Of a DNA stretch of 64,000 bases, positions 1-63,087 are shown in pieces. The notes beneath the pieces were generated by a model. It made no database searches, was not told the origin of the DNA, and was given only the letters and a program-made list of their open reading frames with translations. The translations under genes and the position numbers were made by a program. Positions within the stretch are counted from its first letter, which is position 1. Each line of letters begins with the position of its first letter. Source of the DNA: Ramlibacter alkalitolerans (GTDB lineage Bacteria; Pseudomonadota; Gammaproteobacteria; Burkholderiales; Burkholderiaceae_C); contig NZ_JAEQND010000006.1 in NCBI RefSeq assembly GCF_016722765.1, positions 62,001 to 126,000 on the forward strand, read 5' to 3'.

Positions 1-808
1 CGGTGTTGGTCTTGCGGCTCATCTCCCAGCCGCGGCGCTCGGCGTCGGCGCCGGCCTTGAGCAGCGCCTCCTGCGTCGGCTTGTCGAGGGCATTGAAGGC
101 CGCGCGGTTGACGATCACCGCGTTCTTCGGCAGCCAGGCCTGCGTGTCGTACCAGTTCTTGATGTGCTCGTAGGTCTTGGTGTCCCAGCCCGTGGAGCCG
201 GAGGACATGTACGAATCCACCACGCCCGTGGCCATGGCCTGCGACAGTTCCGCCGCCTGCACCGTCACCGGTTGCGCGCCCACCAGTTCCGCGATGCGCG
301 CGGTGGCCGGGCTGTACGCGCGCCACTTCAGGCCCTTCATGTCGGACGCCGAGTTGATCGGCTTCTTGGTGTAGATGCCCTGCGGCGGCCACGCGACGGC
401 GTAGAGGACCATCATCCCCTGTTCGCCCAGCTTCTTGTCCACCATGGGCTTCTGCGCGCGCCACAGCTTCATTGCGGAGTCGTAGCTGTCGGCGAGGAAG
501 GGGATGCCGTCGGCGCCGAAGATCTGCCACTCGTTCTGGAAGTTCACCAGCAGGATCTCGCCGATCTGCGCCTGCCCGCCCTGCACGGCGCGCTTGATCT
601 CGGGGGCCTTGAAAAGCGACGCGTTCGGGTGCACGGTGATCTTCAGCTTGCCGCCGGTGGCCTTGTCCACGTCGTTGGCGAACTGCACCAGGTTCTCGCT
701 GTGGAAGTTGCTGGCCGGGTAGGCGGCCGGCAGGTCCCACTTGGTCTGCGCGCCGACCTGGCCTGCCAGCGCAAGAGCCGCCAGCGTAAGGGCGAACTTG
801 AATTTCAT
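1..808 (-). CDS. dctP: TRAP transporter solute-binding protein DctP (partial, C-terminus off window)
   Basis: Periplasmic substrate-binding subunit of a tripartite ATP-independent transporter. The ATG at 808 is preceded by a GGAG ribosome site, and the first ~20 residues form a Sec signal peptide ending near GQVGA. The visible 269 residues carry DctP family features: a WDLP/YP start to the mature protein, then ADSYDSAMKLWRAQ, and the central MKGLKWRAYSPATARI and AMATGVVDSYMSS segments. The family is about 320-340 residues long, so roughly the last 60 are outside the window. It is on the same strand as dctM/dctQ (1946-3743), but an oppositely oriented hydrolase lies between them. The substrate is unknown; the nearby oxoprolinase suggests an amide or carboxylate. 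The family call is firm. Confidence 0.93.
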   Translation of the reverse strand, partial: MKFKFALTLAALALAGQVGAQTKWDLPAAYPASNFHSENLVQFANDVDKATGGKLKITVHPNASLFKAPEIKRAVQGGQAQIGEILLVNFQNEWQIFGADGIPFLADSYDSAMKLWRAQKPMVDKKLGEQGMMVLYAVAWPPQGIYTKKPINSASDMKGLKWRAYSPATARIAELVGAQPVTVQAAELSQAMATGVVDSYMSSGSTGWDTKTYEHIKNWYDTQAWLPKNAVIVNRAAFNALDKPTQEALLKAGADAERRGWEMSRKTNT

Positions 809-7483: not shown

Positions 7484-7489
7484 CAAGCC

Positions 7490-7574
7490 GTCATTCCCGC
7501 GCAGGCGGGAATCCAGGGCTTCCGCAACCCCGCGCTGCGCGCGTGCCCTGGGCCCCCGCCTGCGCGGGGGTGAC
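7490..7574. repeat. Family B palindromic repeat (GTCATTCCCGCG type), copy B1
   Basis: The 5' arm GTCATTCCCGCGCAGGCGGG is answered by CCCCGCCTGCGCGGGGGTGAC, with a shorter inner pair CCAGGGCTT / GCCCTGG. It sits directly after the oxoprolinase stop. A near-identical arrangement occurs at 14616-14709 and a degenerate tandem form at 63013-63087. Repeats of this appearance are widespread in proteobacterial genomes. Confidence 0.85.
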
Positions 7575-7610
7575 GGCCTTCGGCCGAGCTCCTTGTGCCA
7601 TCATTTCGCG

Positions 7611-14581: not shown

Positions 14582-14615
14582 CCGGCTCCTTTGGTGAGCG
14601 GAATTCTAGGACGCC

Positions 14616-14709
14616 GTCATTCCCGCGGAGGCGGGAATCCAGGGCTTCGGGGGCGCGCCGCGAGCGGCGGGCATCGGGAGCTCTGGGCCCCCGCCTTCGC
14701 GGGGGTGAC
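14616..14709. repeat. Family B palindromic repeat, copy B2
   Basis: Starts GTCATTCCCGCGGAGGCGGG and ends CCCCGCCTTCGCGGGGGTGAC, with inner CCAGGGCTTCGGG / CTCTGGG arms. It occupies nearly all of the gap between the ihfB stop and the lapA start, so a co-transcript would carry a strong stem there. It could separate expression of rpsA-ihfB from lapA-lapB. Confidence 0.85.
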
Positions 14710-16969: not shown

Positions 16970-19039
16970 TCACGGGTGGGCGAACGGCTGCTTTTCTTCC
17001 CACCAGCGGAGGACCTGGGCGACCGATTCTTCGACGGTCTGGCTCGAGTTATCCAGCAGGAGGGCATCCTGCGCGGGTTTCAGCGGGGCGACGGCGCGAT
17101 TGGAGTCGCGCGCATCGCGCGCCTCCAGGTCCGCGCGAAGATCGTCGATTTTAGCCTGAATCCCTTTTGAAATCAATTGCTTATGCCGCCGGTCGGCACG
17201 CTGGCCGGCGCTCGCCGTCAGGAACACCTTCATCGGCGCGTCGGGGAAGATGACCGTGCCCATGTCGCGGCCGTCGGCCACCAGGCCCGGCAGCCTGCGA
17301 AAGCTCTGCTGCAGCGCGACGAGGGCGCTGCGCACGGCCGGCAGCGCCGAGACCTTCGAGGCGTTCATGCCGGCCTCTTCGGTGCGGATGTCGTCCGTCA
17401 CGTCCTGGCCCGCGAGCAGCACGCTGCCGTCGACGAAGACGACGGGCAGCGTCTCGGCCATCCTGGCGATCGTATGCTCGTGCGCCACGTCCAGCGCCAG
17501 CCCGGCACGCACCGCGGCCAGGCCGGTGATGCGGTAGAGCGCGCCCGAGTCGAGGTAGTGGTAGCCCAGCCGCCGCGCGACTTCGGACGCCAGCGTGCCC
17601 TTGCCCGAGGCGGTGGGGCCGTCGACGCAGATCACCGGGATGTGCGGCGCGGCAGTGCGCGCCAGCGAGAACAGCGCCTCGAAGTAGTCGGGAAAGGTCT
17701 TGCCGACGCACTTCGGGTCCTCGATGCGCACGCGGGTCCCGGCGGGATTGAAGGCGGCCAGTGCGAAGCACATGGCCATGCGGTGGTCGTCGTAGGTGTG
17801 GATCGTCGCGGCCGACCAGGCCTTCGGCGGCGCCACCCGGATGAAGTCCTGGCCTTCCTCGACCTCGGCGCCGAGCTTGCGCAGTTCCGTGGCCATGGCC
17901 GCCAGGCGGTCCGTTTCCTTCACGCGCCAGCTGGCGATGTTGCGCAGCGTGGTGGTGCCGTCGGCGTAGAGCGCCATCACCGCCAGCGTCATCGCCGCGT
18001 CGGGGATGTGGTTGCAGTCGAGGTCCACGGCCTTCAGCGGCCAGGCGCCGCGGCGCACTTCGAGCCGGTTGGGGCCGCTGGTCACCGCTGCGCCCATCTG
18101 CTGCGCGGCCTCGACGAAGCGGATGTCGCCCTGGATCGATGCGGCGCCCACGCCTCCGATGCGCACCGGCTCGCTGCAGCCGGCGATGGCGCCCAGCGCC
18201 ACGAAGTAGCTGGCCGAGGAGGCATCGGCCTCGACGTGGATCTCGCCCGGCGACTGGTAGCGGCTGCCGGCGGGAATCGTGAAGCGCTGCCAGCCTTCGC
18301 GTGCGACCGCGATGCCGAAGCGCTGCAGCATGTTGAGCGTGATCTCGATGTAGGGCTTGGAGATCAGCTCGCCGACCACCTCGAGCACGATGTCGCGGCT
18401 GGCCACCAGGGGCAGCGCCATGAGCAGGGCGGTGAGGAACTGGCTGGAGACGTCGCCGCGCACGCGGATCGGTGCGGCGACATCCAGGGCTTGGGCCGGG
18501 CGGATGCGCAGCGGCGGGAAGCCTTCGTTGCCCAGGTAGTCGATGCGGCACCCGAGCTGGCGCAGCGCATCGACGAGGTCGCCGATGGGCCGCTCGTGCA
18601 TGCGATGCACGCCGGAGAGTTCGAAATTTCCCCCCAGAAGGGCGAGCGCCGCGGTGAGCGGCCGCATCGCGGTGCCCGCGTTGCCGAGGAACAGAGGTAT
18701 TGCTCCCTCCCCCCCTGGGGGAGGGTTGGGGTGGGGGCGCTGGGCGCTCGCTGCGGCCGCTGCGTGCCCCCCTCCCAGCCTCCCCCCGGAGGGGGGAGGA
18801 GCAAGACCCGTGATCGTCACGGTGCTGCCTGCGTGCTCCACCCCGCACCCCAGCGCCACCAGCGCCTCCAGCATCACCCGCGTGTCATCCGAATCCAGCA
18901 AATCATGGACGACCGTCGTCCCCTGCGACAACGCCGCCAGCAGCAGCACGCGGTTGGAGATGCTCTTCGAGCCGGGCAGGGCGACGGTGCCGCCGGCCTC
19001 CTCGAGAGGGGCGAGGTCCAGGAAGGCGGTGGTGAACAC
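16970..19039 (-). CDS. aroA-cmk: bifunctional 3-phosphoshikimate 1-carboxyvinyltransferase / cytidylate kinase
   Basis: A 689-residue fusion. Residues 1 to about 460 are EPSP synthase: [20 protein letters not shown] at residues 17-36, [18 protein letters not shown] after the insert, and the later [16 protein letters not shown] and [19 protein letters not shown]. From about 468 a complete cytidylate kinase follows, with P-loop [11 protein letters not shown] and [11 protein letters not shown]. The fusion is known in Comamonadaceae. The odd part is about 33 Pro/Gly/Ala-rich residues at 80-112, encoded by a double-hairpin repeat (18704-18801) just before the phosphate-binding loop. The start is GTG at 19039, six bases after the tyrA stop. 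Confidence 0.93.
18704..18801. repeat. Family D double-hairpin repeat (CCTCCCCC/GGGGGAGG) inserted in frame in aroA
   Basis: Two perfect hairpins, CCCTCCCCC/GGGGGAGGG (18705-18725) and CCTCCCCCC/GGGGGGAGG (18779-18799), enclose an inner pair GGGTGGGGGC / GCCCCCCTCCC. It contributes 33 codons to aroA with no stop in frame. Repeats of this look are known from other proteobacterial genomes, usually between genes. Confidence 0.88.
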
Positions 19040-19045
19040 GCTGAC

Positions 19046-19924
19046 CTACTTCTTGCGGCCCATGTGCCACTGGGCACGGACCTGGCTCGCCTGCGCGATC
19101 ATCTCTTCGAGCTTCTCGCCGGCACCCGTCTCGGCCAGATGCAGCATGTTCATCAGGCTGCGCTGGAACATCTTCGCCTGCTCCACCAGTTCGACCCGGT
19201 TGGACAGCAGGATGTCGCGCCAGACCTTCGGGTCGCTCGCCGCGATGCGCGTGAAGTCGCGAAAGCCCGGCCCGGCGAGCCCGAGGAAGTCCTTGCCATG
19301 CGCCTGGCCGTCGATCGCGTGGATCAGGGCGAACGCCAGCAGGTGCGGCAGGTGGCTCACGGCGGCGAAGGCGGCATCGTGCGAGTCCGGTGCCATCTGC
19401 TGCACGTGGCAGCCCAGCCCCTCCCACAGCGCCTGCGCCCGCTTGAGGTGCGCGGTCTGCGTCTTCTCGATCGGCGTCAGGATCACCTGCTTGCCGTGGT
19501 ACAGGTCGGGGTCGGCGTGCTCCACGCCGGAGAGTTCCTTGCCGGTGATCGGATGCGCCGGCACGAAGGAGCCGATGTGGTCGCGCAGCACGCGGCGCGC
19601 GGCATCCACCACTTCGCGCTTGGTGGAGCCCACGTCCATGATCAGCATGCTGTTGGTCACCAGGTGGCGGATCGCCTTGAAGGTGGCCTCCGTCGCCGCG
19701 ACGGGCACCGCCAGCAGCACGACGTCCGCGCCGGAGACGGCGAGCAGTGCCGAGGGCGCCTCGACGTCGATTACGCCCATCTGGCGCGCCCGCTCGGTGG
19801 TGGAGGGCGACTTGCTGTAGCCCACCACGCGCTTGACGAGCCCCGCCCGCTTCATGGCCAGCGCGAACGAGCCGCCCATGAGGCCGCACCCGATCAATCC
19901 CAGTTGCTCGAACATCGCTGCCAT
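19046..19924 (-). CDS. tyrA: prephenate dehydrogenase
   Basis: A 292-residue NAD-dependent enzyme converting prephenate to 4-hydroxyphenylpyruvate for tyrosine. The Rossmann motif GLIGCGLMGGSFALAMKRAG is at residues 9-28, followed by VVLLAVPVAAT and the catalytic region DVGSTKREVVDAA and HPITGKELSGV. No chorismate mutase domain is fused, in contrast to the enteric enzyme. A second in-frame ATG is nine bases downstream, so the first three residues are uncertain. It lies between pheA and aroA. Confidence 0.94.
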   Translation of the reverse strand: MAAMFEQLGLIGCGLMGGSFALAMKRAGLVKRVVGYSKSPSTTERARQMGVIDVEAPSALLAVSGADVVLLAVPVAATEATFKAIRHLVTNSMLIMDVGSTKREVVDAARRVLRDHIGSFVPAHPITGKELSGVEHADPDLYHGKQVILTPIEKTQTAHLKRAQALWEGLGCHVQQMAPDSHDAAFAAVSHLPHLLAFALIHAIDGQAHGKDFLGLAGPGFRDFTRIAASDPKVWRDILLSNRVELVEQAKMFQRSLMNMLHLAETGAGEKLEEMIAQASQVRAQWHMGRKK

Positions 19925-63012: not shown

Positions 63013-63087
63013 GGATCCCCGCCTGCGCGGGGATGACGCTGTCGCGCGCGGGGATGACGCTGGCGTGCGCGGGAATGACGCCGGCGC
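63013..63087. repeat. Family B repeat, degenerate tandem form B3
   Basis: GGATCCCCGCCTGCGCGGGGATGACG followed by two further near-copies of the GCGCGGGGATGACGCTG unit. It reaches into the possible start of glnL, and its frame with that gene is open. Confidence 0.75.

Follow-up and report, generated by a model that had tools for sequence, protein, structure and literature searches.

A REP-like palindromic repeat in frame within an EPSP synthase loop that carries several repeat families across Ramlibacter

Introduction

How does a palindromic repeat come to lie in the reading frame of an EPSP synthase gene, and is such an insert a solitary event or one of several at the same place? The question is raised by the aroA-cmk fusion gene in a 64,000-nucleotide stretch of the Ramlibacter alkalitolerans genome (the window). 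A first-pass annotation had recognized a hairpin palindrome translated in frame within this gene and, by implication, a single isolated insertion of one repeat family. The movement and target choice of REPs are unsettled, and because most copies are intergenic, aligning empty with filled sites is difficult. Where several families have entered one conserved loop in close relatives, empty and filled sites can be aligned, as can sites that are apparently half-deleted—with the reading frame as an internal check. The inserts in EPSP synthase, DNA ligase, and PurL form, in addition, a natural series of variants that bears on what extra sequence essential enzymes tolerate.

The repeat within aroA-cmk

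The reading frame of aroA-cmk (Table 1) runs through the palindromic repeat without a stop. The annotated palindrome is confirmed: both 9-bp stems and the inner arms are present, and the frame is open throughout. The repeat has a length of approximately 113 bp, lies in frame, and codes for nearly all of the loop residues 79–115. Comparison with single- and two-unit copies elsewhere shows it to be a tail-to-tail pair of units of ~42 bp each. Its ends are uncertain by ~6 bases because a conserved Gly is encoded by the last GGT (gene strand) as well. The repeat strand folds with -85.4 kcal/mol versus -64.55 (sd 3.76) for 200 dinucleotide shuffles, none of which equals it (0/200; z -5.55), and all six frames are open across the core of the element (18698–18806).

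The insert loop comprises the 37 residues that separate G78 (in ITG) from L116 (in the conserved LFLGN segment), whereas the same interval in the commonest Ramlibacter loop has 11. The net gain is therefore 26 residues, fewer than the ~33 first estimated, and the original short loop seems to be mostly replaced by the repeat, not split. In a phmmer search against the PDB, the alignment breaks at the insert in the three alignments displayed, and some other PDB rows are aligned unbroken; between the aligned stretches lie 17 residues in E. coli EPSP synthase and 40 in the window protein. Rfam yields nothing above the gathering score for positions 18400–19100 of the window, with two sub-threshold matches, the better of which reaches 25.8 bits versus 168 required. 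The AroA query piece has one match in its own genome, as have the ligase and PurL query pieces considered below, so that the three proteins probably work. Judged from the sequence, AroA would be a functional protein that contains the insert peptide.

Table 1. Features of the aroA-cmk locus and further genes of the same genome that carry the element in frame. Positions of the first seven rows are those of the window; names of the eight further hosts that go beyond the Pfam names are presumed.
Feature	Position	Strand	Description and basis
aroA-cmk fusion gene	16970..19039	minus	689 aa, GTG start; ORF list, PDB matches for both parts
EPSP synthase part of aroA-cmk	residues ~1-461		PDB match
Cytidylate kinase part of aroA-cmk	residues ~467-684		PDB match
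Palindromic repeat, GGAG-type dimer	~18696..18808 (+/- ~6 bases)		own-genome blastn; bounds set by end motifs common to other copies
Hairpin A	18705..18725 (18705-18713/18717-18725)		9-bp perfect stem, 3-base loop; sequence, motif scan
Hairpin B	18779..18799 (18779-18787/18791-18799)		9-bp perfect stem, 3-base loop; sequence, motif scan
Inner arms GTTGGGGTGGGGGC and GTGCCCCCCTCCCAGC	18725..18779		able to pair mutually, variable centre; sequence, fold, comparison with other copies
DNA ligase	L200		element inside or between domains; Pfam
PurL-type protein	L201		element inside or between domains; Pfam
DUF3418 protein	L207		element inside or between domains; Pfam
Nitrate reductase alpha type molybdoprotein	L209		element inside or between domains; Pfam
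2-Oxoacid dehydrogenase acyltransferase	L212		element inside or between domains; Pfam
FAD monooxygenase	L216		element inside or between domains; Pfam
OHCU decarboxylase/M20 fusion	L220		element inside or between domains; Pfam
TruB	L232, 1586-1681		element in C-terminal part, past the last Pfam domain; Pfam

A dispersed family in the same genome

The element gives at least 55 blastn match rows in its own genome (G000), with 40 of 146 first-look candidates scored; this number is a lower bound, and one palindrome may yield one row per strand. After merging, 42 places are found in the fetched stretches (38 further stretches and the window), which corresponds to ~40 places over many contigs, again as a lower bound. 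The unit of ~42 bp is often preceded by GGTCTT. It occurs either singly or, as in the window copy, in tail-to-tail dimers whose centre varies. In size and copy number, the element agrees with REPs in the broad sense (a unit of ~20–40 bp, high copy, dispersed). The same holds for its mainly extragenic location, with 27 of the 42 places outside long coding-like ORFs. Fifteen of the 42 places lie within such ORFs, spread over 12 stretches and the window, and nine genes are convincing. Since the element is a member of a REP-like family dispersed over its own genome, it is repeat DNA and not an old protein loop. In the latter case, all relatives had been expected to share one segment that conserves its residues and lacks the hairpin; the segments of the relatives differ.

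The 42 copies have on average 5.36 of six frames open versus 4.92 in dinucleotide shuffles, a modest excess, and all six frames are open in 5 of the 17 long copies. The window carries CGTC-type palindromes as well: an opposed pair at 7489–7575 (7489–7509 plus, 7555–7575 minus) and further ones at 14615–14635 and 63018–63038.

Other genes with the element

A look for the hairpin inside other genes in the 38 further stretches of this genome, as the first-pass annotation had proposed, yields the element in frame in eight genes besides aroA (Table 1), nine in total. Different genes read it in several different frames. The loci L210, L218, L225, and L227 were considered as genic insertions as well and are unconvincing.

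Two of these sites were followed across the genus. A match was obtained in 59 (ligase) and 57 (PurL) genomes, and 30 loci were read per gene; the ligase loops of G004, G018, and G054 and the PurL linker of G036 were unreadable. Repeats of two related hairpin families are present in 4 of the 27 readable ligase loops and in 10 of the 29 readable PurL linkers. As repeats recur at the ligase and PurL sites, the recurrent sites number at least three, among which AroA has the most repeat families seen. Genes of tRNA pseudouridine synthase B are described as targets of REPs and RPEs in unrelated bacteria in the available text of PMC3733652. Together with the TruB gene hit here, these targets hint at tolerant sites shared across bacteria.

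The AroA loop across Ramlibacter

Sixty Ramlibacter genomes were searched with the first 73 AroA residues; 55 matched, and all 55 loops could be read. Every one of them is in frame and free of stops. The five genomes in which no aroA N-terminus matched were queried downstream as well, with 576 residues and no positive control; 0/5 matched, and no out-of-frame allele comes from them. The standard length is found in 34 loops, at least 22 extra codons in ten, and seven extra codons in five; six loops (G058, G014, G018, G053, G006, and G036) differ from the standard by -2 to +4 codons. Nine of the ten long loops are strongly palindromic in the fold test (z -3.5 to -8.4), and G056 is weakly so (-1.8). 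The five seven-codon inserts are near the null (z -0.2 to -1.5) and the standard-length loop of G057 has a z of -3.9, and therefore the fold test alone cannot identify inserts.

Recognized repeats occupy 14 of the 55 loops: ten were recognized by blast (E < 1e-6), and those of G001, G004, G011, and G056 as repeats of their own genomes. These 14 loops feature at least four families—GGAG-type, CGTC-tagged, GTAG-bearing, and the TTCGACAGG type—at odds with the solitary insertion of one family that had been implied. The GGAG-type element was found by blast in G000, G021, G022 (half), G027, G043, G045, and G055, and CGTC units in G029, G046, and G049, where orientation or frame differs among the three. 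Reading of the sequences indicates that the halves of the GGAG element are in reversed order in G045 and that the palindromes of G001, G011, and G056 have GTAG-bearing arms. The loop of G004 contains the TTCGACAGGCTCAG repeat. The inserts of G004, G011, and G056 are repeats of their own genomes with at least 78, 91, and 94 rows, respectively (40 candidates scored in each case, many palindromes being counted on both strands), and that of G001 recurs at one other G001 locus among the stretches examined.

In the blast comparison, 16 of the 55 loops had some match. Those of G002, G014, G016, and G053 (E 0.0003–0.001) were excluded, since they probably reflect flanking aroA DNA or chance; the match between G011 and G056 is equally weak (E 0.0003) and was not taken as proof of one family. 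The SMI hairpin query was partly taken from G055, so that its match to the G055 AroA loop is circular. The CGTC pattern, with at most one mismatch, has 335 hits in G000, 107 in G029, 58 in G046, 50 each in G014 and G049, and 22 in G036; the reversed pattern, used as a control, has none in all six genomes. The loops of G014 and G036 hold CCTTGGATCCCCGCC and were called CGTC remnants by eye, unscored. The loop of G023 features an unclassified seven-codon extension, and that of G058 is two codons shorter than the standard. The G055 loop (L023) is the longest of all; two different palindromic repeats apparently lie adjacent in it, one of them apparently split by further sequence.

An assembly or consensus error is very unlikely as the source of these inserts, to the point of being negligible. 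Many of the relatives are metagenome bins, but separate isolates and bins concur in frame, and each has repeats that belong to families of its own genome; the named isolate R. ginsenosidimutans KACC 17527 (G021) is among the concurring assemblies.

Distribution over the tree

A maximum-likelihood tree of AroA-Cmk minus the loop was calculated in a quick and a careful version from 55 Ramlibacter and four outgroup rows. One clade of 16 species (support 96/83 in the careful tree and 85 in the quick tree) has the standard loop length in none of its members: 12 loops contain recognized repeats, two apparent remnants, one an extension, and one is shorter. In the careful tree, some of the forks within the clade are open, and the bootstrap values are unsettled. 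Outside the clade, repeats are borne by G004 and G043; G052, the sister of G004 (95/91), has a loop of standard length. The tree requires a minimum of seven insert-type changes for the 14 recognized loops only, eight if CGTC is split by orientation or frame, and 11 when G014 and G036 are taken as CGTC and G023 and G058 as a separate class. Presence and absence alone need three changes, or seven if the four doubtful loops are scored as empty.

Three starred sister pairs have unlike contents, namely G056/G014 (100/98), G021/G036 (98/90), and G000/G023 (97/90), and each of them includes one by-eye remnant or unclassified loop. The pair G001/G046 (94/92), which is unstarred, combines two recognized families; G001 fills 24% of the columns.

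As presence alone needs few changes, a shared ancestral insertion could lie behind part of the GGAG inserts. A single ancient insertion behind all loops, inherited and later changed by ordinary mutation in each species, would account for the three changes of presence; however, the clade species hold unrelated repeats, each matching high-copy families in the respective genome, and the CGTC inserts differ in orientation or frame. The unrelated families contradict such a common descent, which we regard as quite improbable.

The inserts might also be selected because they tune the expression or activity of AroA—by an mRNA hairpin, by folding, or by inhibitor sensitivity near the active-site loop. 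The site adjoins the conserved LFLGN segment and all 16 clade members are non-standard, as would be expected, but sequence, length, and family of the inserts vary, their hairpin z ranges from -0.2 to -8.4, and ligase and PurL likewise show recurrent repeats. Selection of this kind is unlikely on balance.

Strong intragenic hairpins are skipped in a few known systems, which sets a precedent for a repeat that is removed or skipped at the level of the RNA or the ribosome and is absent from the protein. In Ramlibacter, this is hardly credible, because the 55 loops stay in frame and free of stops across at least seven changes of insert type, and skipping would not need the frame. With each change having a chance of ~1 in 3 to be in frame and the frame being irrelevant to a skipped or spliced segment, reading through is the simple inference.

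Origin of the inserts

We consider it quite likely that the window copy is a REP-like insert in a tolerant and repeatedly used AroA loop. A REP-like palindrome of mobile type would have landed within aroA, presumably by transposition-like copying, and would have been retained because it is stop-free, preserves the frame, and lies in an EPSP synthase loop that tolerates extra residues. The ribosome would read through the repeat, and the Pro/Gly-rich peptide probably loops out of the protein; the insert loop is presumably surface exposed. In Ramlibacter, the AroA loop would be a reusable landing place, in which unrelated palindromic families inserted repeatedly and inserts were apparently in part deleted and replaced—the enzyme staying in frame.

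Tolerance of the loop, that is, a filter by selection, probably accounts for a larger part of the recurrence than does the choice of targets at the DNA level. By target choice, a first palindrome would draw others into or beside the existing hairpin, e.g., during replication, and the loop would be a true mutational hotspot instead of just a tolerant place. It is the less probable explanation, yet one of real weight. The missing standard length throughout the 16-species clade speaks for it, as do the G055 loop that seems to combine two different repeats and the multi-unit appearance, on reading, of the G055 ligase loop and of the G000, G022, and G055 PurL linkers. The GGAG inserts of G000, G027, G043, and G021 start near the same codon, though G043 stands outside the clade, whereas the insert ends of other families are several codons apart. 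Against target choice, G004 was hit while its sister G052 keeps the standard loop, and neither a target-site duplication nor a consensus target was noticed by inspection. More tentatively, a founder insertion may have made the loop a docking site within an essential enzyme, at which unrelated palindrome families replace each other, palindromes preferring palindromes. If this were true, protein loops would offer selfish DNA shared habitats of long duration and would steadily supply new peptide sequences.

Relation to known repeats

The RPEs of Rickettsia are palindromic dispersed repeats of several families that lie in frame in unrelated genes, as described in the available part of PMC10969869. 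The comparison with RPE spread made in the first-pass annotation applies in so far as the Ramlibacter element is dispersed, palindromic, and inserted in frame in coding genes (nine genes); its nearest described relatives, however, are REPs and not RPE-1. By description, RPEs have a length of ~150 bp compared with the unit of ~42 bp here. They are said to encode a conserved peptide, whereas several frames are used here, and in Ramlibacter unrelated families share one site of one gene.

GTAG/CGTC-tagged REPs are high-copy palindromes that occur singly or as dimers, and their intragenic dimers code for 20–30 residues, according to the available text of PMC3733652 (Di Nocera et al. 2013). The targets given there include a DNA ligase and tRNA pseudouridine synthase B. 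Ligase and TruB are hit here, too, and CGTC units are found in three aroA loops (G029, G046, and G049); the window element, in contrast, features neither of the two unpaired tags and has GGTCTTGCTCC-like ends. The nearest precedent found is in the same text, which describes different REPs at about the same recB site in two Xanthomonas species. Its main text has no mention of aroA, Ramlibacter, or Variovorax, the gene list being a supplement.

The first-pass annotation placed the host in Comamonadaceae, which agrees with Ramlibacter, and stated that translated palindromes are not commonly reported there. This stands for the element itself but is too broad otherwise, since BREs are GC-rich dispersed repeats of betaproteobacteria including Comamonadaceae, some copies of which lie entirely in coding sequence, as given in the available part of PMC3110155. 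By the description in PMC3110155, BREs would differ from the element in their length of ~90 bp, often tandem arrangement, and few copies. In the literature searched, which covered few subscription journals, neither several repeat families in one enzyme loop nor palindromic repeats in aroA or Ramlibacter were found. In-frame palindromes are thus known from Rickettsia and elsewhere; the use of one enzyme loop by several unrelated repeat families looks new.

Outside the genus, the best 80 Burkholderiales loci among the matches listed were considered. Of these, 79 were readable (L136 was left out), and removal of the Ramlibacter loci L089, L095, and L157 left 76, among which unnamed bins may be near Ramlibacter. 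None of these 76 AroA loops matches a repeat at E 1e-3, with queries that carried flanking aroA bases and covered only families derived from Ramlibacter, so that other families elsewhere would be missed. The 76 loops are short, except for L154, L100, L105, and L108. In L100, L105, and L108 (Comamonadaceae; one titled Limnohabitans), the AroA loop is longer by 12 residues and has no match to any repeat; it is possibly a decayed old insert.

REPINs and their RAYTs resemble the present system in that the palindromes are paired and of high copy number and in that a Y1_Tnp gene is widespread, being present in 57 of the 59 Ramlibacter genomes searched, mainly once per genome. They differ from it in the location of the repeats, which flank the RAYT gene in RAYT/REPIN systems. 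Here, none of the GGAG, CGTC, and GTAG motif forms was found near Y1_Tnp, either in a 5-kb stretch with the gene in the own genome or in the stretches read around it in ten relatives, all ten being genomes without a recognized aroA repeat; degenerate forms could be missed. The Y1_Tnp match of the own genome (L039/L235) is located in an open stretch of 714 codons, compared with ~240 codons in many relatives.
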